Source of the DNA: Candidatus Saccharicenans subterraneus
GTDB lineage: Bacteria; Acidobacteriota; Aminicenantia; Aminicenantales; Saccharicenantaceae
Direction: 5' to 3'
DNA length: 64,000 nt
Assembly: GCA_003426165.1 (NCBI GenBank)
Contig: QUAH01000004.1
Span: forward strand, 7,501-71,500
Shown in pieces: positions 5,592 through 55,646 of this stretch; the first letter of the stretch is position 1; every line of letters starts with the position of its first letter. The position numbers were made by a program, and so were the translations under genes. A model generated the notes under the pieces. The model saw only the letters and a list, made by a program, of their open reading frames with translations. It did not search any database and was not told the DNA's origin.

Positions 5592-6167
5592 ATGAAAAAT
5601 AGTCAGGCGAAATTAATTATCTTCATTTTTTGCATCACTTTAACCTTTAACCCGGTTTTTTCAAGCAATCTGTCAGCTTCCAGCACGCAACAGCTGCCGG
5701 CTCCGGGGAAAGTTGAAATTCGCACGGTCGAACCTTTTGTTTATTGCTCGCTGGGCCGGGAAGGCTCTTTTTCAGAAATTGAAGCGACCGTGGGTGAACT
5801 GATGCAGCACATGCAGAACCAGAACGTTTTCCCGACCGGAGCCATGATCGGCATCTATTACGGAGACGCAGGGCTGACCGACCCGGACAGGATGCGCTGG
5901 GAGATCGGCTTTCCCATAAACGAGCAGGCCCAGGTTCTGGCCCCGCTTGAGAAGAAACAGTGGGTCTTCAGCCAGGTGGCCGTCAGCATTCACCAGGGAC
6001 CTTACGACACCATCGGGGAAACGATAACCACGATCCAGGAGTGGCTGGAAGAAAACGGCTATTCTCAGGCCGGTCCCATCCTGGAAAGATACCTTGACCC
6101 TGACCCATCCCGGGTCAGTTCCAGCGGTCTTAAGACTGAAATCTGGATTCCCTGCGTGAAAAGGTAG
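5592..6167 (+). CDS. Exported GyrI-like effector-binding domain protein
   Basis: 191 residues. A hydrophobic signal peptide (about residues 1-28) is followed by one GyrI-like / AraC effector-binding fold. Support comes from the length, the alternation of strands, the Tyr/Gly-rich segment GIYYGD, and the C-terminal region with a buried Glu and an EIWIPC ending. In cytoplasmic relatives (SbmC/GyrI, BmrR C-terminus) this fold binds small hydrophobic molecules. Here the domain would be outside the cytoplasm and is not attached to a DNA-binding domain, so a binding or carrier role is more likely than gyrase inhibition. ATG has GAGGAG 6 nt upstream. It is monocistronic, with a T-run at 6187-6193 after the stop. 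Confidence 0.75.
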   Translation: MKNSQAKLIIFIFCITLTFNPVFSSNLSASSTQQLPAPGKVEIRTVEPFVYCSLGREGSFSEIEATVGELMQHMQNQNVFPTGAMIGIYYGDAGLTDPDRMRWEIGFPINEQAQVLAPLEKKQWVFSQVAVSIHQGPYDTIGETITTIQEWLEENGYSQAGPILERYLDPDPSRVSSSGLKTEIWIPCVKR

Positions 6168-7338: not shown

Positions 7339-7740
7339 ATGGCAGAAAAAACGCTGGCCATAATCAAGCCTGATGCCGTCAGGAAAAGAGTTGTGGGGAA
7401 AATAATCCAGAGAATAGAAGACGAAGGCTTTGAGATCCGGGGTCTCAAAATGCTTCACCTGAGCAAGGACGAAGCCAGGAAGTTTTACCACGTGCATAAA
7501 GACAAACCTTTTTATGAGAGCCTGACCGATTTTATGTCTTCCGGTCCGGTGGTTGTTCTCCTGCTGGAGAAAGAAAACGCTATCAAGCACTGGAGAGAGG
7601 TCATGGGCGCCACCGACCCGGCCCAGGCCAGGCCGGGAACCCTCCGTCGCCAGTTCGGTTTCTCGGTAGAAAGAAATGCAGTCCACGGGTCAGACGCTCC
7701 CGAGACAGCTGAGTACGAAATTGGCTTTTTTTTTAGCTGA
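7339..7740 (+). CDS. ndk: Nucleoside diphosphate kinase
   Basis: 133 residues, the usual size of the family. It transfers the gamma phosphate from ATP to NDPs through a phospho-histidine. The conserved KPDAV motif is near the N-terminus, and the active-site His lies in NAVHGSD near residue 115. The start at ATG 7339 gives the canonical N-terminus (AEKTLAIIKPDAV) and has AAGGAGAGG a few bases upstream; an upstream in-frame extension to 7267 is not part of the protein. It is transcribed alone from a likely promoter at 7250-7278. Confidence 0.96.
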   Translation: MAEKTLAIIKPDAVRKRVVGKIIQRIEDEGFEIRGLKMLHLSKDEARKFYHVHKDKPFYESLTDFMSSGPVVVLLLEKENAIKHWREVMGATDPAQARPGTLRRQFGFSVERNAVHGSDAPETAEYEIGFFFS

Positions 7741-7784
7741 TAACAGGGTAAAAATTATTTTTTGGCCCGCAATAAAAAAAATAC

Positions 7785-7813
7785 TTGACAAAAACTAAAT
7801 AAAGTTTTACATT
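7785..7813 (+). promoter_or_regulatory. Strong sigma-70 promoter of the small secreted protein gene
   Basis: A perfect TTGACA (7785-7790), a 17-nt spacer, then TACATT (7808-7813). The predicted start is near 7820, leaving a leader of about 100 nt before the ATG at 7924, longer than for most genes here. Confidence 0.6.
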
Positions 7814-7923
7814 TTTTGTGCGCCTTGGATGAGAATGAGAGTCAGGGGGTATTGTTCTTTCTTTTTTCTTCCCTCTTGGTCTGTCATTCCTCCGGGCTGA
7901 AAAGCTTATAGGAGGTACCCACA

Positions 7924-8199
7924 ATGCGTAAATCCTTAATTAAAGTCGTTGCCATCCTGGCCTGCCTGATTTTCACCATTAGCCTGGTGCCGGCAATGTA
8001 TGCCGCCGAGAAAAGGATTTCCAAGGATGATCGGCTGATTCTGCAGAAACCCTTGACCCTGCTGGTCTCGATTTTCCCGTTCCTTGGCTCTGTTATTGAC
8101 AGCGGCAGCAAGTCCAGCACCAGCACCACGGTCAAGAAGAGCCTGAAGCCGACTGCCGAGATTCAGGTTGGAACCAAACCGGGTAACGACAGAGATTGA
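7924..8199 (+). CDS. Small secreted protein, unknown function
   Basis: 91 residues. The N-terminal Lys-rich start, hydrophobic core and VPAMYAA processing site form a typical Sec signal peptide (about residues 1-27). The mature part of about 64 residues is basic, has a Leu/Ile/Phe-rich middle (near LLVSIFPFLG) and a Ser/Thr-rich linker. No known domain is recognised. The start is secured by AGGAGG 8 nt before the ATG. The gene has its own consensus promoter and a hairpin after it (8232-8266). It lies 134 nt upstream of the first TPR-CHAT gene on the same strand, so it could be a partner, substrate or signal for that system; this is only a guess from position. Confidence 0.7.
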   Translation: MRKSLIKVVAILACLIFTISLVPAMYAAEKRISKDDRLILQKPLTLLVSIFPFLGSVIDSGSKSSTSTTVKKSLKPTAEIQVGTKPGNDRD

Positions 8200-8231
8200 T
8201 AATAATATCCACAATAGTTTTAAATCACCCT

Positions 8232-8266
8232 GAGGGGTGAGGAAATTTATAAAATCTCACCCCCTC
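8232..8266 (+). terminator. Hairpin after the small secreted protein gene
   Basis: GGGGTGAG (8234-8241) pairs with CTCACCCC (8256-8263) around a 14-nt AT-rich loop. The 3' side is pyrimidine-rich but has no continuous T-run, so termination strength is uncertain; it may be an mRNA 3' stabiliser. Confidence 0.45.
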
Positions 8267-8284
8267 TTTCCCCCTCTCAAGCAA

Positions 8285-8313
8285 TTGACAAAAATCCCCT
8301 TAACTGGTTTATT
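8285..8313 (+). promoter_or_regulatory. Possible short-leader promoter of the first TPR-CHAT gene
   Basis: TTGACA (8285-8290), a 17-nt spacer, then TTTATT (8308-8313). Transcription would begin near 8320, only about 13 nt before the ATG and within the GGGGAGG ribosome site, so the mapping of the start matters. Confidence 0.4.
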
Positions 8314-8332
8314 TTAGGGGAGGATTTCCTTA

Positions 8333-11320
8333 ATGGAAAAGAGTTTAAAGCCAGGACTGGCCTTACTTTTATTCTGCTTTCTCAACCTAAACTTATTTCC
8401 CCAGTCCAGCCCCACCCTTAATAAGCCACAAGAAAACTTTACCCAGCTATTGTCCAACGCCCAAAGTTTGCTAGCTGAAGGCCAGTATTCCCGGGCCCTG
8501 AAAATCCTCCAGCAGAGCCTGAACCTGGCCAGGACCGCCGAGGAAAAAAAATCAGCGCTTTTCTACCTGGCTGAAACCAATGCCAGCCTCGGCCAACTGC
8601 CCCAGGCCAGCGAAAGGTACGTCCAGTGTCTTGAATTAGCCAGGAAACTGGCCGATTCGGCCACAATTCAATACTGCCAGAAAGCTATAGAAATAATTGA
8701 TCTGTTTAATAAGGCCAAAGAGCTACGTCAAGATAAAAAGTGTTCGGAAGCAATCGAAACTCTGAATAGAGCCATTGTCATCTGTAACGAGATTAAAAAC
8801 GATACTCTTAAGATGAAATGCCTGCGGCGGAAAAGCCTTTGCTTGCTTGATATGAATGATTCGGAAAATTATCTAAAAGTAAATATCGAAGCAAACACAA
8901 TTGCCAAAAAATTAAAAAATGCTTATGAAATTATAATAACGCTAAATAATATCGGACACTGGTACTTTTCTATAAATAACATAAATTTAGCCATTGACTA
9001 TTTTACCCAGGCCATTTCATACATCAATGAAGATACTCTGCCCCAGGACATTTTTGATATATATTATAACCTGGGTACTGTATACAATGAAATTGGAAAT
9101 TTCGACCGGGCCATTGAATACTTCAACAATGCTCTGGCCATAATCTCCAATGACAGAACCAACCCATACTATTCAGCCACCCTGATCGGGCTGGGATTCA
9201 GTTATGTTAAAAAGGGCCTATCCACGGGGAGCCGTGAAGATTACGACCGGGCCTTTGACTGCTTCTCTCAAGCCCAGCAGATAGCAGCCAAAACCGGAAA
9301 CAAGAATTATGAGGTTATCACCTATAACAACCTCGGTTCCCTCAAGGCCCACCTGGAAGAAAACCTGGATGCCCTCTATTACTTAAACAAGGCCCGGGCC
9401 CTGGCCGAGGAACTAAAACTAAATTCTTATCTGGCTTCAATATACACAAATATCGGAATAATCTACGGCCGCCTCGGGGATTACCAGAACTCCACGCTCT
9501 TTTATGACAAGGCTATCAACCTGGCCGTAAACGAGAACGAAAATCGCTACCTGTGGGAAAGCTACCTGGAAAAAGCCAACCTGCTCAGAAAGCAGGGGCA
9601 GCCCGAGGAAGCAAAATTTTACTACTTGAATTCCATTAACATCATAGAGAGCCTGCGCAGCCAGCTTCTGACCGAAGAAGACAAGGCCAGCTTCTTCGGA
9701 AGCGATAAGAGGCTCGATGCCTACTACAACCTGACCGACCTGCTGATCAACCAGCAAGAAAAGGGTTCAAGCCAGTCAACCCTGGGCCAGGCCTTCAATT
9801 ACATGGAAAGAGCCAGGGCCCGGGCTTTCCTGGAGAGCATCGAAGCTTCAAAGGTCAGCCAGCAGTTTCCGGTCGATATCCGCCTGGCCAACAGGGAAAA
9901 GGAGCTGATGAGCGACCTGTCCAGGATTTATACTAGGTTGATAACTCCGGAGGTAGAAGATAAAGAAAGGACCGCCCTCCTGGACCAGGTCAAACGCCTG
10001 GAAGAAGACCTGGAAAATGTCAGGCGACAGATCAGGTCCAAAAACCCGGCCTTCGCCAACCTGGCCTACCCGGAAGTCATAACTTACGAGCAGGCCCGGA
10101 AGGAGTTCGTTGACTGGAAAACGGCAGTTTTTGCCTTCCTGGTGGGAAAGGATTCTGCCTACGCCTTTTGCCTTACGAGGAAAGGACTGAAGGTCTATCC
10201 GGTCCCGGCCCAAAAAGAACTGAGGGAAATGGTCACCCGCCACCGCCGGGCCATCTCGGATACGGATAATCAGGATTTCAGCAGCGGTTACACACTCTAT
10301 AAAGCCCTGATTGAACCTGGCCTGGAAAATGGCCTTAAAAATGGCTTAAATAAATTGCTGATCGTCCCGGACGATATTCTGACCATTCTTCCCTTTGAAA
10401 CCCTGGTTCTTTCCAGCCAGCCGGCCGACTGGCTGGTAAGGCATTACACCATAAACTATGCTCCCTCTCTCAGCTCACTCAAGGGACTCGCCCATAAACA
10501 GAACCGAAAGGACCGCAAGAAACCGTCCTATAACCTCCTGGCCATAGGCGATCCTTATTACGGCGAGCTGGAAGAAAAATACTCCGAGCTGTCCACCAAG
10601 ACTATCTTCCAGAACCTCTACAGCCTGTCCGACATGAAGTTTTACCGGCTCCGGTACTCCGAGGAAGAGGTCCGCAGGATTTCCGGCCAGATACCAAAGT
10701 CCAGGATGCTGACCAGGGAAAGGGCTTCAGAAGACCTGGTCAAGAGGGCCAACCTGGCCGATTACCGAATTCTGCATTTTGCCGCTCACGGGCTCATCGA
10801 CGACCAGAAACCGGCCCGCTCGGCCATCGTCCTGACCCTGGACAATGACCCGGCTGAAGACGGCTTCCTGCAGATGAGGGAAATCCTTAACCTCAAGCTG
10901 AATGCCGACCTGGTTGTCCTATCCTCCTGCCAGACCGGCCTGGGGCAATTCATCCGGGGCGAAGGTATAGAAGGACTCAGCCGGGCCTTTTTCTATGCTG
11001 GAGCTTCCTCCGTCCTGATGAGCCTCTGGACGGTTAACGACCAGGTGGCCAGCCAGTTCATGGATAGATTCTATCTTCATCTCAAGCAATCCGAGAGCCA
11101 GGCCGAGGCCCTGCGGGCGGTCAAGCTGGAAATGATTGAGTCCGGAGTGGTCTCCCACCCCTTCTACTGGGCGCCCTTCGTCATAAACGGCGACGGAGAC
11201 CTGAAAATGTTTGTGCCCGGCTACCAGACTCCCCTGGTGATAGGACTATCTGTCCTGGGACTGACCCTGGGAGCCCTTATCTTCCGAAAGAAGCTGTTCA
11301 ACAACAAAAAGGGGCACTGA
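8333..11320 (+). CDS. Exported TPR-CHAT protein (caspase-like protease candidate), membrane anchored
   Basis: 995 residues. The signal peptide (about 1-25) is followed by many tetratricopeptide repeats (about 30-480), a helical linker, and a C-terminal CHAT domain (about 590-960). The catalytic pair is His819 in HFAAHGL and Cys866 in SSCQTG, as in caspase HetF-associated proteases. A single hydrophobic segment near residues 965-985 followed by Lys/Arg residues suggests that the CHAT domain is held outside the inner membrane with a short cytoplasmic tail. CHAT proteases act in defence and signalling; TPRs bind partners. The start has GGGGAGG 9 nt upstream. Downstream are an ECF sigma/anti-sigma pair and a second TPR-CHAT gene facing back, so a role in proteolytic control of the sigma factor is an attractive inference. 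The substrate is unknown. Confidence 0.88.
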   Translation: MEKSLKPGLALLLFCFLNLNLFPQSSPTLNKPQENFTQLLSNAQSLLAEGQYSRALKILQQSLNLARTAEEKKSALFYLAETNASLGQLPQASERYVQCLELARKLADSATIQYCQKAIEIIDLFNKAKELRQDKKCSEAIETLNRAIVICNEIKNDTLKMKCLRRKSLCLLDMNDSENYLKVNIEANTIAKKLKNAYEIIITLNNIGHWYFSINNINLAIDYFTQAISYINEDTLPQDIFDIYYNLGTVYNEIGNFDRAIEYFNNALAIISNDRTNPYYSATLIGLGFSYVKKGLSTGSREDYDRAFDCFSQAQQIAAKTGNKNYEVITYNNLGSLKAHLEENLDALYYLNKARALAEELKLNSYLASIYTNIGIIYGRLGDYQNSTLFYDKAINLAVNENENRYLWESYLEKANLLRKQGQPEEAKFYYLNSINIIESLRSQLLTEEDKASFFGSDKRLDAYYNLTDLLINQQEKGSSQSTLGQAFNYMERARARAFLESIEASKVSQQFPVDIRLANREKELMSDLSRIYTRLITPEVEDKERTALLDQVKRLEEDLENVRRQIRSKNPAFANLAYPEVITYEQARKEFVDWKTAVFAFLVGKDSAYAFCLTRKGLKVYPVPAQKELREMVTRHRRAISDTDNQDFSSGYTLYKALIEPGLENGLKNGLNKLLIVPDDILTILPFETLVLSSQPADWLVRHYTINYAPSLSSLKGLAHKQNRKDRKKPSYNLLAIGDPYYGELEEKYSELSTKTIFQNLYSLSDMKFYRLRYSEEEVRRISGQIPKSRMLTRERASEDLVKRANLADYRILHFAAHGLIDDQKPARSAIVLTLDNDPAEDGFLQMREILNLKLNADLVVLSSCQTGLGQFIRGEGIEGLSRAFFYAGASSVLMSLWTVNDQVASQFMDRFYLHLKQSESQAEALRAVKLEMIESGVVSHPFYWAPFVINGDGDLKMFVPGYQTPLVIGLSVLGLTLGALIFRKKLFNNKKGH

Positions 11321-11365
11321 CCCGCCGTCATCCCGAATCCCTGAATTTTTCCCGCCTATGAGAAT

Positions 11366-11394
11366 TTTTCTTTGTTTCCAGCATCTATTATAAT
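11366..11394 (+). promoter_or_regulatory. Promoter of the ECF sigma gene (consensus -10, weak -35)
   Basis: TATAAT at 11389-11394 with a poor -35 (TTTTCT, 11366-11371) 17 nt upstream. Predicted start near 11401, about 20 nt before the ATG. An activator or an alternative sigma factor could make up for the weak -35. Confidence 0.4.
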
Positions 11395-11419
11395 CGAACC
11401 TTAAAACACCGAGCCTGAG

Positions 11420-11962
11420 ATGCTATCGCGGCAGAGAAAAGAGCGGGAATTTCAGAAAATCCTGGATGATTTTTCTGTTTTCATTCGTTCCCTGGTCCTG
11501 AGATACAGGCTGGACAGACTGGGCCTGGATGCCGACGACCTGGTCCAGGAGATCCGCCTCAGACTCTGGAAAATTATCGACGATGAGAAAAATATCCACA
11601 ACCCGGCGTCCTATATAAAGAAGGTGGTGGAGTCAGCCGTGATCGACCAGATCAGGAAAATCAGGAGAGAAGAAGAGGTGGTCATTTCCGAGAAGCAAAA
11701 GCTTATTTCCGAACTCGAGCCCAGGGCCAGCCATTATGCCGATCCCCCGGGTTCAATTAAAGACTACCTGTTAAAGGCAGCCGACAACCTGATGGACTCC
11801 AGGAAAACGGTAGTCAAACTATACCTCCTGAACATGAGCCTGCCAGAAATTTCCGCCTATCTGAACTACAGTCCAGCCAAGACCAGAAACCTCCTCTATC
11901 GGGGACTGGCTGACTTAAAGGCCATTTTACGAAAAATGGGGTTCAATCATGAAAAGATTTGA
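11420..11962 (+). CDS. ECF-type RNA polymerase sigma factor
   Basis: 180 residues, the size of an ECF sigma factor. Region 2 lies near residues 10-75, with the conserved DADDLVQEIRLRLW core-binding helix. Region 4 lies near residues 125-172, with a helix-turn-helix (LPEISAYLNYSPAKTRNLLYRG). It would direct RNA polymerase to a specific promoter set. Its 3' end overlaps the next gene by 14 nt, which encodes a one-TM protein with a zinc-binding anti-sigma motif, so the two form a sigma/anti-sigma pair. It is flanked on both sides by exported TPR-CHAT genes. No SD of good quality is seen before the ATG at 11420, although GAG-rich sequence is present. Confidence 0.88.
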   Translation: MLSRQRKEREFQKILDDFSVFIRSLVLRYRLDRLGLDADDLVQEIRLRLWKIIDDEKNIHNPASYIKKVVESAVIDQIRKIRREEEVVISEKQKLISELEPRASHYADPPGSIKDYLLKAADNLMDSRKTVVKLYLLNMSLPEISAYLNYSPAKTRNLLYRGLADLKAILRKMGFNHEKI

Positions 11963-12647
11963 AAAAAGACTCCAGGAGCTGGCTCGAACCGACCCGGAGC
12001 TTCAAAATCCCCTCGCCCGCGATAATTGCCCCTCGCCCGAGGATCTCTCTTTTTCCTTCGAGCCGAATTGCCCCCCGGAATTGAAAATCTCGATAATAAA
12101 CCATGTTTCAGGATGTCCCGCCTGCCGGAGAGAATTCGAGCTGCTCAGGGGTAGCCGGCAATTGATTGGCCGCCTGGAGGAGATGTTTGCTTCACCAAAA
12201 TCAAGATTCCTGGACAGAAGAATCTCATTCTTTGGCCTGGCCCTGCCCTGGTGGAAAATGGCCTCGGTCCTTATAACTTTACTGGCCTTTATTTCTATAT
12301 TTTACCTGGGATTCAACCACCTGAATTCTCTCAAAGAAGAGAGAAAAATTGCCACCGCCGAGCAGGTCATCCTCTACGAGGAGGTGAGCTGGCCACAACC
12401 GGCCGTGATCAGACTGGGCTGGAAATCTGCCAGAGACGGCCTGTTTTACCGGGTGGAAGTTTACGACCAGAATATGTATCTTCTCTGGCAGAGCCCGTTG
12501 ATTTCTGAAAACAGGCTGGAACTACCGGGCTCGGTGCTCGATTCCCTGAAAGATTATCAACACTTCTTCTGGCAGCTACTAATTTACAGCGGTCAAAATA
12601 AAGTCATTGAGTCCGAGGTCAGAAAGGTCCGCCTGGTGTCTCAGTAA
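11949..12647 (+). CDS. Membrane anti-sigma factor with zinc-finger motif and exported C-terminal domain
   Basis: 232 residues. The cytoplasmic N-terminus carries His52-x3-Cys56-x2-Cys59 (NHVSGCPAC), the ZAS/zf-HC2 signature of anti-sigma factors. One TM helix spans about 103-122. The exported C-terminus (about 140-230) is beta-rich, FN3-like, and includes a WQSPL/FFWQLL pattern. It overlaps the ECF sigma gene by 14 nt, the usual order for such pairs. The exported region is a plausible sensor and protease target. It resembles, by eye, the C-terminus of the second anti-sigma factor at 54999-55646 (WKxxxxGxxYxVxV...LLW...LP...Y.W..). The gene ends 7 nt inside the opposing TPR-CHAT gene. The cognate sigma factor is inferred from adjacency. 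Confidence 0.82.
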   Translation: MKRFEKRLQELARTDPELQNPLARDNCPSPEDLSFSFEPNCPPELKISIINHVSGCPACRREFELLRGSRQLIGRLEEMFASPKSRFLDRRISFFGLALPWWKMASVLITLLAFISIFYLGFNHLNSLKEERKIATAEQVILYEEVSWPQPAVIRLGWKSARDGLFYRVEVYDQNMYLLWQSPLISENRLELPGSVLDSLKDYQHFFWQLLIYSGQNKVIESEVRKVRLVSQ

Positions 12648-15490
12648 ATTCTTCCGGGATTCCCGATTAATACATAACCCGCCCAGTAATAAGGATGAGA
12701 GGTGCCCCCATTGATCATTTTTAGCTTGGCCTGTCTCAGGGCTTCAGCCCTCGACTTTCCGGCCAGAAGGCCCCGGTAGAAGTCCAGCATCAGGATCTCC
12801 GAAGCCCGGTCATTCACCGCCCACAGGGCAGAGACAACCGCCCGGCTGCCGGCCAGCAGGAAGACCCGCGGCAGGCCGATAATTCCCTCCATCCTTTCAA
12901 TACTTCCGCGACTGCTCTGACAGGAGGCCAGGACCACCAGTTCCGAACTTAGCCGGAGGGTATAAATTTCCCTGACAGTCAAGAACCCGTCCTCGGAGCT
13001 CTGTTTAGAAGAAGACAGCACCAGCGACGAGCGCTGCGGAAATTTCTCGCTGACCAGGCCGTGGCAGGCGAAATGAATAATCCGGTAGTCGCCGAGTCTA
13101 AGGGCCTTCAGGTTGTCCTCGCTGGCCCTTTTTCGCAGAAACAGGTCATAACTCTTTACGGGAAACAGTTCCGCCAGCTGCTTCGTTTCCTTCTGGGAAA
13201 AGGGCAGGGTTCCCAGGCTGAAATCAGCCGGGGGATGTACTCCATTAATGAAATAGACCCTGGTCCTGACCTGGTTATCAAACCAATGGCTGTAGACCGG
13301 ATTGCCGAAGGCCAGGAGTTCTTTCTGGTAACTAGCAGATTTAGGCTCTGCCCTGAACCGGGTAATCAGGGCCAGGGCCGGACTGTAAGAAATGCTGTGG
13401 GTCTCAACCAGGTAGCCGCGGGTCCCCGGCTCTCCAGCGATCAGGGTTTCAAAGGGCAGGTTATTCAGAAGTCCGTCAGGCACGATAATAAGAGATGAAA
13501 ACTTTTCTGAGGCCAGTTCTTCGACCGGGAGCAGGAGCCTTCCTATTCTACTTCCAGCCAGCCTGAGGTCGTCCTCGCCAACAGCCGTCGATCCCAGGAG
13601 TTTTATATAAAGCTTCACCGACCTCTCAATTTCCTTTTCATCCGGAAGCCGGACGATGCGGAAATGGTCACGGCTGATAATGAAACAGTAAGACTCTTCC
13701 TGACCGAGAAAATAATCAAGAATTAACTGGTCTTCGGACAGGACTTCTTTCTGGATGAATTCGAGATTTGGCAAATTATTCCGTGAGTTTGTCACCGCGG
13801 CCTGCCCGCCCATCTCCCGGAGCCTCAAATACCTGTATTCCAGCTCGGCCAGGCGGCTGGATGAAGATTCATCCAGAGTGTTTTCCGGCCGCCTGAAAAA
13901 ATCATTTATCATCCGGTCAATCCTGTTTAACTCCTCAGCCTGATGGCCCGATTCCTGGGTAGATGACAACCTTTCCATCTCCTCGATCAGCACCCGGGCC
14001 TTGATACTGTTCAGCCCCAGGAAGGCCATTTCATCTGCCTGGCGTCCCTGGTACTTTAACCTGTATTTTACCAGCGACCGGATCAGCCCCTCGTAAATCT
14101 CTTTTTTTCCCCTGTCGAAACCGATGCGGAAAAGTTCCAGGGTAATACTACCCCTGACTTGATCAACGGTTTCCAGTGCCTTTTGATAGCTCTGGATGGC
14201 AGACTTATAATCACCCAACTTTTCAAAACAACGGGCCAGGCCATAATAATTGCTAAAGATCTCAACCCAGTAATCTTCTTTGATGGCTAAAGCTAAAGAA
14301 CGGGTGTAGAGTTCTTTGGCCCGGATGACCTTATTTTCTCTAAGGCTAAGGGTGGCCAGGTTGTTGATGGAAGCAATAATCACCTTGCTATCCTTGAGAT
14401 GTTCTCCAAGCCTCCAGGACCGCAGGCACAGGTCCCTGGCTTTTTCCGGGTCAATTTCAAGAAGGACATAACCCAGGTTATTAAGCATCCTGGCTTCCAG
14501 GTCCCTCATTCCCGCTTGCCGGCTCAGTTCCAGGGCTGTGGACAGCAACTCCTGAGGACGCCTCCCACCTGGAAGGTCATTATTCTCCCTTTCCTTCTTG
14601 TGCAGAGAAAGGGCCAGCTCCGATAGAAGATAGATGGTGGTGGCCAGGTCCTCTCCCTTCTGGTAAAATTCCAGGGCCCTCTCCAGATAATGCTCTGAAA
14701 GTTCATACAGTCCTAATTGATAGCTATTGACAGCCAGGTTCAACAGAACAACCGGCTCTTTATGTAACAAATTTTCCTTTTCAGCCAGAACCAGGGCCCG
14801 GTCAAAATAATCATAGCTTTTGAATACTTCTCTCTTGTGAAAATGATAATTCCCAATATTTATTAGAGCTCTAAACACCTCAAAATAGTTTTTAAGACGC
14901 TCGGCTATTATTAACACCTCATTACTACAATTAAAATAATCATCGATCTTATTCTGATAATAATAAGTAAAAGAAAGCTGGAATAAAGATTTACATTTAA
15001 ATTCATCCATTTCTTTTTTGTCAGCTAATTCTATTGCCATCCTAAAAGCGGATTCTGATTCTTGATATTTCTTGTCTTCCTTTTTATTTTTCCCTTCTCG
15101 ATAAAGCTTGATTATTTTAAGGGCGGTGCTGGCATAATCCCGGAGGTTCTCATCTTTCAGTTCCTCAACCAGTGCCCTAACATAAATGAAGGCGTTCTCC
15201 GCCCGGCTGACCTCTCCCAGATTCCAGTAATCCAGGGCCATGTTCAGCCAGCAGTTGGCCCTGTAGCCTGCATCCGACCGCGTATTGGTCCCGTTAATTT
15301 CTTTTTCCAGAATCGCCAGGGAATCCTCGTACCGACCCTGCAGGCGGAGCCAGATGGCCCTTTCCAGATTGCTGTTGTGAACTGGCTGCCCTTCGGCCAG
15401 CAAGACGCCGGGCAATGCCAGAAACAGGGAAAAAATAGCCGCGGAAACCGGGAATACCCGGCAGCACCAAATCCTCAACCTTCCTTCCAT
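12641..15490 (-). CDS. Second exported TPR-CHAT protein (caspase-like protease candidate)
   Basis: 949 residues with an N-terminal signal peptide (about 1-32), a long array of tetratricopeptide repeats (about 35-460), a linker, and a CHAT domain (about 570-945). The catalytic residues are His810 in HFACHGL and Cys857 in LASCQSS. It is clearly a paralogue of the protein at 8333-11320, with the same domain order and similar blocks (LIVPDGLLNNLPFETL versus LIVPDDILTILPFETL), but it lacks the C-terminal TM tail, so it is probably soluble in the periplasm or secreted. It converges on the anti-sigma gene with a 7-nt overlap of the coding ends. The start has no clear ribosome site. A promoter at 15506-15534 predicts a leader of only about 9 nt. 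Confidence 0.87.
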   Translation of the reverse strand: MEGRLRIWCCRVFPVSAAIFSLFLALPGVLLAEGQPVHNSNLERAIWLRLQGRYEDSLAILEKEINGTNTRSDAGYRANCWLNMALDYWNLGEVSRAENAFIYVRALVEELKDENLRDYASTALKIIKLYREGKNKKEDKKYQESESAFRMAIELADKKEMDEFKCKSLFQLSFTYYYQNKIDDYFNCSNEVLIIAERLKNYFEVFRALINIGNYHFHKREVFKSYDYFDRALVLAEKENLLHKEPVVLLNLAVNSYQLGLYELSEHYLERALEFYQKGEDLATTIYLLSELALSLHKKERENNDLPGGRRPQELLSTALELSRQAGMRDLEARMLNNLGYVLLEIDPEKARDLCLRSWRLGEHLKDSKVIIASINNLATLSLRENKVIRAKELYTRSLALAIKEDYWVEIFSNYYGLARCFEKLGDYKSAIQSYQKALETVDQVRGSITLELFRIGFDRGKKEIYEGLIRSLVKYRLKYQGRQADEMAFLGLNSIKARVLIEEMERLSSTQESGHQAEELNRIDRMINDFFRRPENTLDESSSSRLAELEYRYLRLREMGGQAAVTNSRNNLPNLEFIQKEVLSEDQLILDYFLGQEESYCFIISRDHFRIVRLPDEKEIERSVKLYIKLLGSTAVGEDDLRLAGSRIGRLLLPVEELASEKFSSLIIVPDGLLNNLPFETLIAGEPGTRGYLVETHSISYSPALALITRFRAEPKSASYQKELLAFGNPVYSHWFDNQVRTRVYFINGVHPPADFSLGTLPFSQKETKQLAELFPVKSYDLFLRKRASEDNLKALRLGDYRIIHFACHGLVSEKFPQRSSLVLSSSKQSSEDGFLTVREIYTLRLSSELVVLASCQSSRGSIERMEGIIGLPRVFLLAGSRAVVSALWAVNDRASEILMLDFYRGLLAGKSRAEALRQAKLKMINGGTSHPYYWAGYVLIGNPGRIY

Positions 15491-15505
15491 CGATTGTTTC
15501 TAAAT

Positions 15506-15534
15506 TTATTATTATTTTTATAAGGGCAAGTCAA
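15506..15534 (-). promoter_or_regulatory. Promoter of the second TPR-CHAT gene
   Basis: On the minus strand TTGACT (15534-15529), a 17-nt spacer, then TAATAA (15511-15506). Predicted start about 15499, nine nt before the ATG at 15490. Confidence 0.45.
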
Positions 15535-15601
15535 TTATTTTCTGGCAATAAACAGGCTCCGGATAATATAATAATTTTGAATTTGTTTAAGGAGCTTTAC
15601 A

Positions 15602-16342
15602 ATGAATAAGACGCCCGCACTACTGATTTTTCTCACCTTGTTTCTGCTGTTTTCTTTTTCCCTGGCCACAACGCCAGCCGCTGCCCAGGAACAGCAGCTC
15701 AGGCCAGCCCTGCTGGAACAGCCGATGCCAGATTTCGCCCTGCCCTCATACCAGGGCCCTGAAGTCCGGATTTCAGGCCTCAAGGGCAAAAACGTGATGC
15801 TCATCTTTCCCCGGGGCTACGCCGCCCCCGACCGCTGGTGCACCATCTGCAACTACAAGTACGTGGAACTGGCCGAGCTGGAAAAAGCAAAGCAGCTTCG
15901 CAAGAAATACAACCTCGAGATCATTTTTGTTCTTCCCTATCCCCGCGACACGGTCAAGCTCTGGCTGGAGAGTCTGCCCGAGCAAATGGCCAAGGTCAAG
16001 AACTGGAAATACCCCGAGAACCTGGACCAGCTGGACGAAAAGGGTAAGCAATCGGTAGAACGTTACCGGCGGATTTTCCCCAAGGATTTTACAGTCAGCA
16101 AGGACAACATTCCCATGCCCTTCCCCATCCTGGTAGACGCCGACCACCAGGTTTCATCCGGGCTGGGCCTGTTCACCACTTCCTGGGGAGGGAGCCAGGT
16201 GGAGCAGAATATACCAGCCGTCTACCTCCTTGATGAGAAGGGCATACTGCGCTTCAAGTACATCAGCCAGAACACCCTTGACCGGCCGGAATACGAATAC
16301 CTGCTCAAGATCCTGGATATGATCAGGCAGAAAAAGCTTTAA
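15602..16342 (+). CDS. Exported thioredoxin-like / AhpC-TSA family redoxin
   Basis: 246 residues. A signal peptide (about 1-29, ending near PAAAQ) is followed by a thioredoxin fold of the AhpC/TSA (redoxin) type: PMPDFALPSYQG at the start, then a strand GKNVMLIFPRG. The redox site Cys-Thr-Ile-Cys lies in RWCTICNYKY, near residue 80, and a cis-Pro region IPAVYLLD follows near the end. The Cys-x2-Cys placement suggests thiol-disulfide exchange or a peroxiredoxin-like role in the periplasm. AAGGAG lies 8 nt before the ATG, and TATAAT at 15567-15572 is a likely -10. It is divergent from the second TPR-CHAT gene. The exact substrate is unknown. Confidence 0.8.
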   Translation: MNKTPALLIFLTLFLLFSFSLATTPAAAQEQQLRPALLEQPMPDFALPSYQGPEVRISGLKGKNVMLIFPRGYAAPDRWCTICNYKYVELAELEKAKQLRKKYNLEIIFVLPYPRDTVKLWLESLPEQMAKVKNWKYPENLDQLDEKGKQSVERYRRIFPKDFTVSKDNIPMPFPILVDADHQVSSGLGLFTTSWGGSQVEQNIPAVYLLDEKGILRFKYISQNTLDRPEYEYLLKILDMIRQKKL

Positions 16343-54434: not shown

Positions 54435-54932
54435 ATGCGACCAAGGGTAGATGAAGATATCCAGGAGCTGATGGTCCGCTACCGGCCGATCATTGCCTTC
54501 CGGGTCCGCAAAGCCCTGGGTGCCCAGAACACAGATTGCGAAGACCTGGTCTCGGAAATTCTCTCTCAGGTCCTGGAGAAACTCCAGACAGGGGAATTCC
54601 GGGGTGAATCTTCTCTTGGAACCTTTGTTTATACCATAACTTCCCGCCGGATAGTCGACTATATAAGAGAGAAGACCAAGGTCATGAAATACGCGCCAGA
54701 GCCGGCTAATTTCCCCGACCCCCAGGAAACCCTGGAAGTGGCCGAAATGTCAGAAAAGGTAAAAAGGGCCCTGTCCCGGCTGAAACCCAAATACCGGGAA
54801 GTTCTATATCTTTATTATTATCAAGAACTTAGTCGCGAAGAGGTGGCCCGGCACCTGGGGGTGTCCACCAGAAAGGTCAGCGAGCTGGTCAACTACGCCC
54901 TGAAACTGATAAGAAAAGAGCTGAAACCATGA
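54435..54932 (+). CDS. ECF-type RNA polymerase sigma factor (second copy)
   Basis: 165 residues with region 2 (about 10-75; NTDCEDLVSEILSQVLEK, then TFVYTITSRRIVDYIRE) and region 4 (about 105-160; LSREEVARHLGVSTRKVSELVNYALKLI). It is of the same general type as the sigma factor at 11420 but clearly different in sequence. It is followed after 66 nt by a one-TM anti-sigma gene. Its target promoters cannot be read from the window. The promoter at 54356-54385 is a candidate, so autoregulation should be tested there. Confidence 0.88.
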   Translation: MRPRVDEDIQELMVRYRPIIAFRVRKALGAQNTDCEDLVSEILSQVLEKLQTGEFRGESSLGTFVYTITSRRIVDYIREKTKVMKYAPEPANFPDPQETLEVAEMSEKVKRALSRLKPKYREVLYLYYYQELSREEVARHLGVSTRKVSELVNYALKLIRKELKP

Positions 54933-54998
54933 AAATTTTTTCCATTTTTGCCTGATTCCGGCGACTAAAAGGGTGAAGAAAAGGGAAGGCGGATTAAA

Positions 54999-55646
54999 AT
55001 GAGCAAATGCAAGTTTGAAGACCTGATCGATGGGTACCTGCTTAACAAACTTAGCGAAGGGGATAAAGAGGCCTTCGAAGAGCATTATTTCAATTGCTCT
55101 TCTTGCTTCGAGAAGCTCCAGGAAAGAGATGTCATTATCCGGACCATCAAGAACAACCCGGCCCTGCTCGAAGAAAAAGAAGAAGTGCGCTCCTCGGTCC
55201 TGGCCAGTCTTCGGAGAGAGGTAGCTTCTTTCCTGACCGTCAGGCAACTGGCCTTCGCCGGAGTCACCGCCCTGCTGGTCATGATCATAGTCTTCGCCGT
55301 TCTGCCCCGTGGCCAGGCACCAGCCCCCAACTTCTTCCTGACCGATGAAGAAACGGTCCGCGGCTCTTCCATCACCCTGATTTCTCCGGTCATCGACATG
55401 AGCCAGATACCGTCCTCGTTCGAGTGGAAAAAACTGGGCGAAAATATCGAATACCAGATTTCAATCTTCAATGGCCAGCTCCTGTGGAAAGCCACCACCA
55501 GGGAGAACCGGATTACCCTCCCCGACGAGGTCAAGGCCAGGATGGTTCCGGGAGAAAAGTACTCCTGGCAGGTCAAAGCCTTTGGACCAGACGGAACGCT
55601 GATCGCCGTTTCCAGCCGGGTGCAGTTCAAGATTTCTGCTAAGTAA
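54999..55646 (+). CDS. Membrane anti-sigma factor with zinc motif and exported C-terminus (second copy)
   Basis: 215 residues. His29-x3-Cys33-x2-Cys36 (EEHYFNCSSC) is the zinc-binding anti-sigma motif, followed by one TM helix (about 84-102). The exported C-terminus (about 110-214) is beta-rich and contains WKKLGENIEYQISIFNGQLLW, resembling the C-terminus of the anti-sigma factor at 11949-12647. It is the next gene after the ECF sigma factor, so the pair is likely functional. The exported domain is the probable sensing or cleavage region. No CHAT gene is adjacent to this pair. Confidence 0.82.
   Translation: MSKCKFEDLIDGYLLNKLSEGDKEAFEEHYFNCSSCFEKLQERDVIIRTIKNNPALLEEKEEVRSSVLASLRREVASFLTVRQLAFAGVTALLVMIIVFAVLPRGQAPAPNFFLTDEETVRGSSITLISPVIDMSQIPSSFEWKKLGENIEYQISIFNGQLLWKATTRENRITLPDEVKARMVPGEKYSWQVKAFGPDGTLIAVSSRVQFKISAK

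Follow-up and report, generated by a model that had tools for sequence, protein, structure and literature searches.

In the RseA/DegS/RseP system, a membrane anti-sigma factor undergoes regulated proteolysis. Proteolysis of this type is also named in passages of PMC10028731, which report that Csx29 cleaves Csx30, an inhibitor of the extracytoplasmic function (ECF)-type sigma factor CASP-sigma, and which propose autoregulation by CASP-sigma. Parts of PMC11229360 describe, for SAVED-CHAT and CalpL-CalpT-CalpS, a CHAT protease cascade or a protease that cuts an anti-sigma factor. For the DdvA/DdvS pair, sections of PMC12288465 describe control of an antiphage island with a CRISPR system by DdvS, and a passage of PMC4374960 states that the DdvA signal was not known as of 2015. 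Here we analysed a 64,000-nucleotide stretch of Candidatus Saccharicenans subterraneus, of the Aminicenantes (Acidobacteriota) (the window; contig QUAH01000004.1, positions 7,501 to 71,500), in which genes for an ECF sigma factor (SIG), an anti-sigma factor (ANTI) and two proteins with tetratricopeptide repeats (TPRs) and a CHAT domain (CHAT-A and CHAT-B) form a real sigma/anti-sigma/CHAT unit. The best single explanation of this unit is that CHAT proteins predicted to be exported cleave the anti-sigma factor.

The sequence-only reading of this DNA had listed five open reading frames (ORFs), with two TPR-CHAT genes around an ECF sigma gene and the gene of an anti-sigma factor with one transmembrane (TM) helix, and both the ORF list and Pfam bear this out. 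SIG (11420-11962, + strand, 180 aa) scored 40.5 bits against Sigma70_r2, above the cut-off, and 56.1 bits against TIGR02937 (cut-off 42.9), its Sigma70_r4_2 match of 22.6 bits falling slightly below the cut-off of 25.7; with regions 2 and 4 only, it belongs to the ECF sigma factors. ANTI (11949-12647, + strand, 232 aa) follows directly. CHAT-A (8333-11320, + strand, 995 aa) and CHAT-B (12641-15490, - strand, 949 aa) each match Pfam CHAT (PF12770) at 235 bits, with TPRs N-terminal to the CHAT domain, and CHAT-B lies tail to tail with ANTI, the 3′ ends overlapping by 7 bp. No third CHAT domain was found by Pfam CHAT search of the host genome, which is 93% complete. The motifs HFAAHG/SSCQ in CHAT-A and HFACHG/ASCQ in CHAT-B give the catalytic pairs H819/C866 and H810/C857, exactly as first assigned from the sequence, with a further histidine at H815 and H806, respectively. 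The family match and the catalytic His and Cys together identify both as putative CHAT peptidases, that is, as cysteine-protease homologues.

Conservation was examined in 60 stretches from relatives and 78 named loci, whose ORFs were scored with profiles built in this analysis. Rows sharing the last 120 residues were merged, a duplicate stretch (L127) was omitted, and six loci (L218, L222, L226, L227, L230 and L232) were set aside as outside the class; in-class assignment was by similarity and includes L198 and L219, on contigs with the labels Atribacteria and Lokiarchaeota respectively, and L202 and L228, which come from another order. With the window's own genes counted in, the in-class set comprises 63 genes of the CHAT-A type and 60 of the CHAT-B type. 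The idea of a linked system had been staked beforehand on a neighbourhood conserved in relatives, and it held: 53 of the 59 CHAT-B-type genes whose 3′ flank spans 750 bp or more are convergent with an anti-sigma gene within 1 kb, with spacings of -68 to +55 bp in 52 cases and of 844 bp in the remaining one. A convergent anti-sigma gene was lacking in L085, L091, L121, L205, L213 and L214. An assembly gap interrupts the anti-sigma site of L214, and the same place in G061, taken as the same genome, has an anti-sigma match; because the gap starts close beyond that match, L214 more likely represents a cut gene than a CHAT-B truly without an anti-sigma factor, and the count was left at 53/59.

Because some loci had been picked via an anti-sigma match, we also made a selection-free check, comparing by eye the anti-sigma positions with those of 28 CHAT genes of the window's order among the matches listed by a Pfam search. 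An anti-sigma match lies within 5 kb on the same contig for 25 of these 28 (the exceptions are G040:C12, G019:C8 and G034:C77), and 15 of the 16 listed genes that are not CHAT-A face an anti-sigma gene. One of the 15 (G019:C14), contained in no earlier stretch, is CHAT-B-type with convergent anti-sigma and sigma genes. Together, the convergent count and the selection-free check reject a chance neighbourhood. On the other side of the sigma pair, CHAT-A is followed by a sigma gene in 35/44 loci and is preceded in 33/43 loci (counting those whose 5′ flank spans 800 bp or more) by SMALL (7924-8199, + strand), a 91-aa protein that tracks with CHAT-A; its N-terminus resembles a signal peptide, and it has one more hydrophobic segment. 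An apparent sigma-CHAT fusion in L093 was rejected as over-extension of a long sigma ORF.

The catalytic His/His/Cys residues are present in 61, 61 and 60 of 63 CHAT-A rows, the remainder being gaps and never replacements, and in 60/60 CHAT-B rows; of the six CHAT proteins outside the class, all have the second His and the Cys, and all but L222 also have the first His. Export was judged by simple hydropathy rather than by a signal-peptide program, counting only proteins long enough to judge, and an N-terminal h-region was found in 43/45 CHAT-A and 46/52 CHAT-B proteins. A C-terminal TM segment with a positive tail (K/R-rich in the window's CHAT-A) was present in 58/60 CHAT-A proteins, with a mean tail charge of +4.4, and in 0/60 CHAT-B proteins. 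As far as hydropathy tells, the CHAT proteins are therefore exported and not cytoplasmic, as had been supposed. The nearest named relatives of CHAT-A, at 96 and 93% identity, are in Candidatus Saccharicenans and Candidatus Aminicenantes records, and 186 of 297 sampled Acidobacteriota genomes have a CHAT match; to our knowledge, these proteins are mostly without a known role. We also noted that the N-terminal halves of the L089, L102 and L124 CHAT proteins look by eye like a parallel beta-helix, a possible sensor swap with the convergent anti-sigma link retained. Pfam gives no support for a replacement of most TPRs by beta-helices in these proteins, and we treat it as an impression only.

ANTI carries C27 and the motif H52-x3-C56-x2-C59, and in an alignment of 32 rows C27, C56 and C59 never vary and H52 hardly does, although the match to Pfam zf-HC2 (14.8 bits) falls below the cut-off of 22.2. 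An H-x3-C-x2-C motif before a single TM helix is the mark of zinc-finger anti-sigma factors, and ANTI is predicted to bind sigma. Its structure model (pLDDT 80, pTM 0.43) has a helical N-terminal part, a TM helix (residues 101-131), a linker of low model confidence (132-137) and a beta-sandwich (141-228) that matches fibronectin-III (FN3) domains and is predicted from the model to be periplasmic. As far as sequence tells, the export signals and the CHAT-A anchor place the CHAT domains beside this FN3 domain, which fits the earlier suggestion that the anti-sigma C-terminus and the CHAT domains share the periplasm. The linker opens with Arg132, which 58/60 sequences of the ANTI1 type (that of ANTI) retain. 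The host genome encodes M50 (site-2 type) proteases, and the anatomy of ANTI fits regulated intramembrane proteolysis, with cleavage putative. No plasmid homologues of the anti-sigma factor were found at E 0.01.

A predicted promoter connects SIG with CHAT-B. The motif TGAGAA-N15-18-C[AG]TC[TA], which we take to resemble ECF promoters, was scanned from -260 to +60 of gene starts in the in-class loci, and was found before SIG in 24/61 loci and before CHAT-B in 24/53, as against means of 0.09 and 0.08 in dinucleotide shuffles (100 rounds, maximum 1). In the window, the predicted SIG promoter (11359-11386, + strand, TGAGAA-N17-CATCT) lies 33 bp 5′ of the ATG, and that of CHAT-B (15609-15635, - strand, TGAGAA-N16-CGTCT) approximately 118 bp 5′ of the ATG, within the first codons of a divergent redoxin gene; one SIG site elsewhere (L094) sits slightly inside the ORF as called. 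The motif was found before 0/45 CHAT-A, 2/27 SMALL and 0/8 SIG2 genes (SIG2 being a second sigma factor, described below), and before 0/813 other ORFs of at least 200 aa.

Across 19 genomes of the genus, a slightly stricter form ending in CRTCT occurred 318 times compared with 113 for a reversed control, with no excess in G013. Of 81 sites in four genomes, 41 were examined in 40 fetched stretches; these comprised all 14 own-genome sites outside the locus and hand-chosen sites from the other three genomes. A gene for a universal-stress-protein (UspA-like) bears a promoter site in 4/4 genomes, and a sigma-54 activator, a ComM-like ATPase, cysS and a small conserved protein without a Pfam match each do so in at least two of the four. 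Seven of the 14 own-genome sites are intergenic, five of these with a gene within 400 bp downstream. A promoter shared by the sigma gene and its targets is the pattern of an autoregulated ECF regulon, SIG being the factor that would read it. Since the motif is common to the upstream regions of SIG and CHAT-B, we predict that CHAT-B is a target of SIG, in a loop that also takes in the universal-stress protein. Two small proteins of 76-77 aa, from two genomes, lie 3′ of promoter sites (L331:2760-2990, + strand; L313:2010-2243, - strand); they have signal-peptide-like starts, a common C-x3-FERC motif and no Pfam match.

The window contains a second pair, SIG2/ANTI2 (54435-55646, + strand), an ECF sigma factor and a zinc-finger anti-sigma factor with an FN3-like C-terminal part in the same layout as ANTI. 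This pair is flanked by housekeeping genes and recurs in eight relatives, close to the genes of PSP1, HolB and UvrA, and no CHAT gene was found beside it in 9/9 loci (the window and eight relatives, in stretches of 3.8 to 14 kb). Single-sequence scoring had put three CHAT-linked anti-sigma factors (L119, L122 and L124) nearer ANTI2, and profiles re-typed them. Outside the class, a Chloracidobacterium contig (L232) has sigma, anti-sigma and TPR-CHAT genes co-directional with gaps of 36 and 7 bp, an apparent operon; a Bacteroidales-labelled contig (L218) has the same co-directional order with a differing anti-sigma ectodomain, and a Pyrinomonadaceae contig (L226) has the convergent CHAT/anti-sigma layout. 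These three are not a random draw, since they are among the six outside-class loci found as CHAT-A relatives. A Calditrichia contig (L227:8422-14318, + strand) encodes a CHAT protein, then a 631-aa membrane protein, presumably CHASE2-like, and then a 303-aa protein matching the anti-sigma profile at 29 bits; there was no sigma match in that stretch.

We propose that the locus encodes a CRISPR-free envelope signalling unit in which the zinc-finger anti-sigma factor would tether the ECF sigma factor to the inner membrane. The FN3 domain of the anti-sigma factor would project into the periplasm, where the TPR-CHAT proteases would also reside, CHAT-A anchored and outside the sigma promoter's control, CHAT-B soluble. 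The TPR part would sense a periplasmic cue and the CHAT domain would then cut the anti-sigma factor in the linker that joins the TM helix to the FN3 domain, with the near-invariant Arg132 as a possible site. A site-2 (M50) protease and cytoplasmic proteases may subsequently release the sigma factor, in an order of steps that we infer; the freed sigma factor would transcribe SIG and ANTI, CHAT-B and a stress regulon including the UspA-like protein and others, closing a positive loop. The conserved gene set, the export signals, the unreplaced catalytic residues, the domain anatomy, the shared promoter and the M50 proteases support this model. Taken whole, with its cue, its cut and the place of the cut conjectural, we put it tentatively at just short of an even chance. 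In a reconstituted host, the regulon could be tested directly through the predicted promoter, and the cut through the linker Arg.

Several observations weigh against this proposal. Arg132 is also kept in 10/10 ANTI2 sequences, most of them without a CHAT neighbour, and was therefore rejected as a CHAT-specific cleavage signature; it is a lead only, because such columns can arise from the way a linker rich in gaps is aligned. An ANTI2-type anti-sigma gene faces a CHAT gene in one genome of another order (L202/L276), so that the paralogue control is valid within the order only. CHAT-A stands without a sigma gene in 9/44 loci, and in seven inspected loci of relatives an opposite-strand gene, a family-2 glycosyltransferase in all four scanned, lies between the two; being separable in this way, CHAT-A and sigma were probably not one old operon. 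The promoter motif was not found in 37/61 SIG and 29/53 CHAT-B regions, mostly outside the genus, where the promoter has therefore drifted or differs. It does occur before the CHAT-B-type genes of L205 and L213, both without an adjoining anti-sigma gene, and CHAT-B, lying under a predicted SIG promoter, may be an output as well. In 38 hand-picked genomes outside the class, taking one CHAT gene each among the matches listed by Pfam search, a sigma-like ORF above 20 bits occurred in 8/38 stretches (three of them weak, at 22-26 bits) and a zinc-finger TM protein near CHAT in 3/38, and thus most CHAT genes in that sample are not sigma-linked. The earlier claim of a stand-alone exported CHAT/sigma system is accordingly upheld in part: the catalytic residues are unreplaced and the same gene set recurs co-directionally in Chloracidobacterium, but CHAT-B is also a possible output and CHAT-A can be separated from sigma.

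With the promoter found before CHAT-B, an output role becomes the main rival. CHAT-B, perhaps with CHAT-A and SMALL, would be a product of the response, an exported protease acting on envelope or foreign proteins, and the sigma factor would be freed otherwise, by a DegS-like protease or by a ligand on the FN3 domain. The sigma promoter before CHAT-B, even where no anti-sigma gene adjoins, and the tracking of CHAT-A with SMALL, its possible substrate, both favour such a role. Against it, CHAT-B abuts the anti-sigma gene, an adjacency observed for none of the other predicted regulon members; sigma/anti-sigma/CHAT gene strings occur elsewhere; and DdvA is an anti-sigma factor with a CHAT chain. 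We consider output alone unlikely, and the two roles may both hold as a positive loop. Still less probable, in our estimate, is that the CHAT proteins lack a proteolytic function and act as co-sensors or feedback inhibitors, binding FN3 and setting the state of the anti-sigma factor without cutting: TPR and FN3 domains are typical binding modules, both are present here, and an inhibitor made under sigma control would yield negative feedback, but retention of His/His/Cys in every CHAT-B row and every ungapped CHAT-A row is not expected of a pseudo-enzyme. That the CHAT pair and the sigma pair are neighbouring units without a functional link, as the separability of CHAT-A and the intervening opposite-strand gene might suggest, is very improbable, being largely refuted by the convergent CHAT-B loci and the shared promoter and opposed by the co-directional layout outside the class.

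Three other features of the window were noted. A leader GCGCCTTGGATGAGAATGAGAGTCAGGGGGTATT 5′ of SMALL (7820-7853, + strand) is strongly conserved, with few changes across 11 aligned upstream regions of the genus and no Rfam match. Between SMALL and CHAT-A, an inverted repeat GGGGTGAG / CTCACCCC (8234-8263, + strand), similar in most aligned genus regions, may be an operator or hairpin; no known RNA element was matched by Rfam at gathering score in 7400-16000. Further upstream, 5592-6167 (+ strand) encodes a protein with a GyrI-like small-molecule-binding domain whose N-terminus resembles a signal peptide.

Comparison with known systems used a structure model of CHAT-B (pLDDT 85), for which the lowest Foldseek E-values were to DdvA, then Csx29/TPR-CHAT of Craspase and then separase; sequence profiles also match Csx29 and DdvA, with His and Cys aligned. 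Whole-chain superpositions were poor (TM by query 0.24-0.44) because the TPR superhelices differ. DdvA of Myxococcus xanthus (PDB 8ROT, 8RW5), the transmembrane anti-sigma factor of the ECF sigma factor DdvS, is the closest, with an E-value of 1.2e-15, TM by query 0.24-0.32 and rmsd >23, its His and Cys falling at the catalytic places. Its chain is named CHAT domain-containing protein and, judging from this name and the PDB titles, joins anti-sigma and CHAT in one polypeptide, in contrast to the separate ORFs found here, with an anti-sigma factor that carries FN3. The CHAT proteins of the 38 outside-class loci likewise show no zinc-finger motif within their N-terminal 200 residues. The DdvA precedent, like the CHAT-B promoter, the FN3 domain and the separability of CHAT-A, goes beyond the sequence-only reading; because of DdvA, the idea of a CHAT protein tied to an anti-sigma factor is not wholly new. 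No description of the exported CHAT/sigma/anti-sigma arrangement was found in searches of the open-access literature.

Craspase/CASP (Csx29-Csx30-CASP-sigma, type III-E CRISPR) likewise links a TPR-CHAT protease, an ECF sigma factor and the inhibitor of that factor, and Csx29 resembles CHAT-B in fold (TM by query ≤0.42, by target ≤0.54) as well as in profile. The cutting of Csx30 by Csx29, cited as a precedent when the locus was first read, agrees with the passages of PMC10028731 concerned. Craspase is nevertheless cytoplasmic and RNA-guided, encoded with Cas7-11, and its inhibitor is not a membrane zinc-finger protein, whereas the CHAT proteins here bear export signals. The locus had been said to lack Cas genes, and this agrees with the absence of a Cas1 match in the 93% complete host genome, Cas7-11 itself lying outside the search; a PADLOC defence assignment was rejected, the five proteins matching nothing beyond generic TPR models and, weakly, GajA. 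SAVED-CHAT and CalpL-CalpT-CalpS, as type III CRISPR effectors, differ in being driven by cyclic oligonucleotides and coupled to CRISPR. The RseA/DegS/RseP system shares with the locus a one-TM anti-sigma factor with a periplasmic domain, and a site-2 step for which the host has M50 proteases, but its site-1 protease is a PDZ serine protease, where the candidate here is a CHAT cysteine protease. On the widest view, exported CHAT proteins would be site-1 proteases of membrane anti-sigma factors, forming a CRISPR-free autocatalytic stress switch in several Acidobacteriota classes and perhaps beyond, with Csx29 and DdvA as offshoots of an older envelope use; we regard this as possible, with the balance leaning somewhat against it. 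If true, exported proteins of the caspase/separase fold would join the proteases that can initiate regulated anti-sigma proteolysis, and there would be a likely older setting for the CHAT/sigma systems linked to CRISPR.

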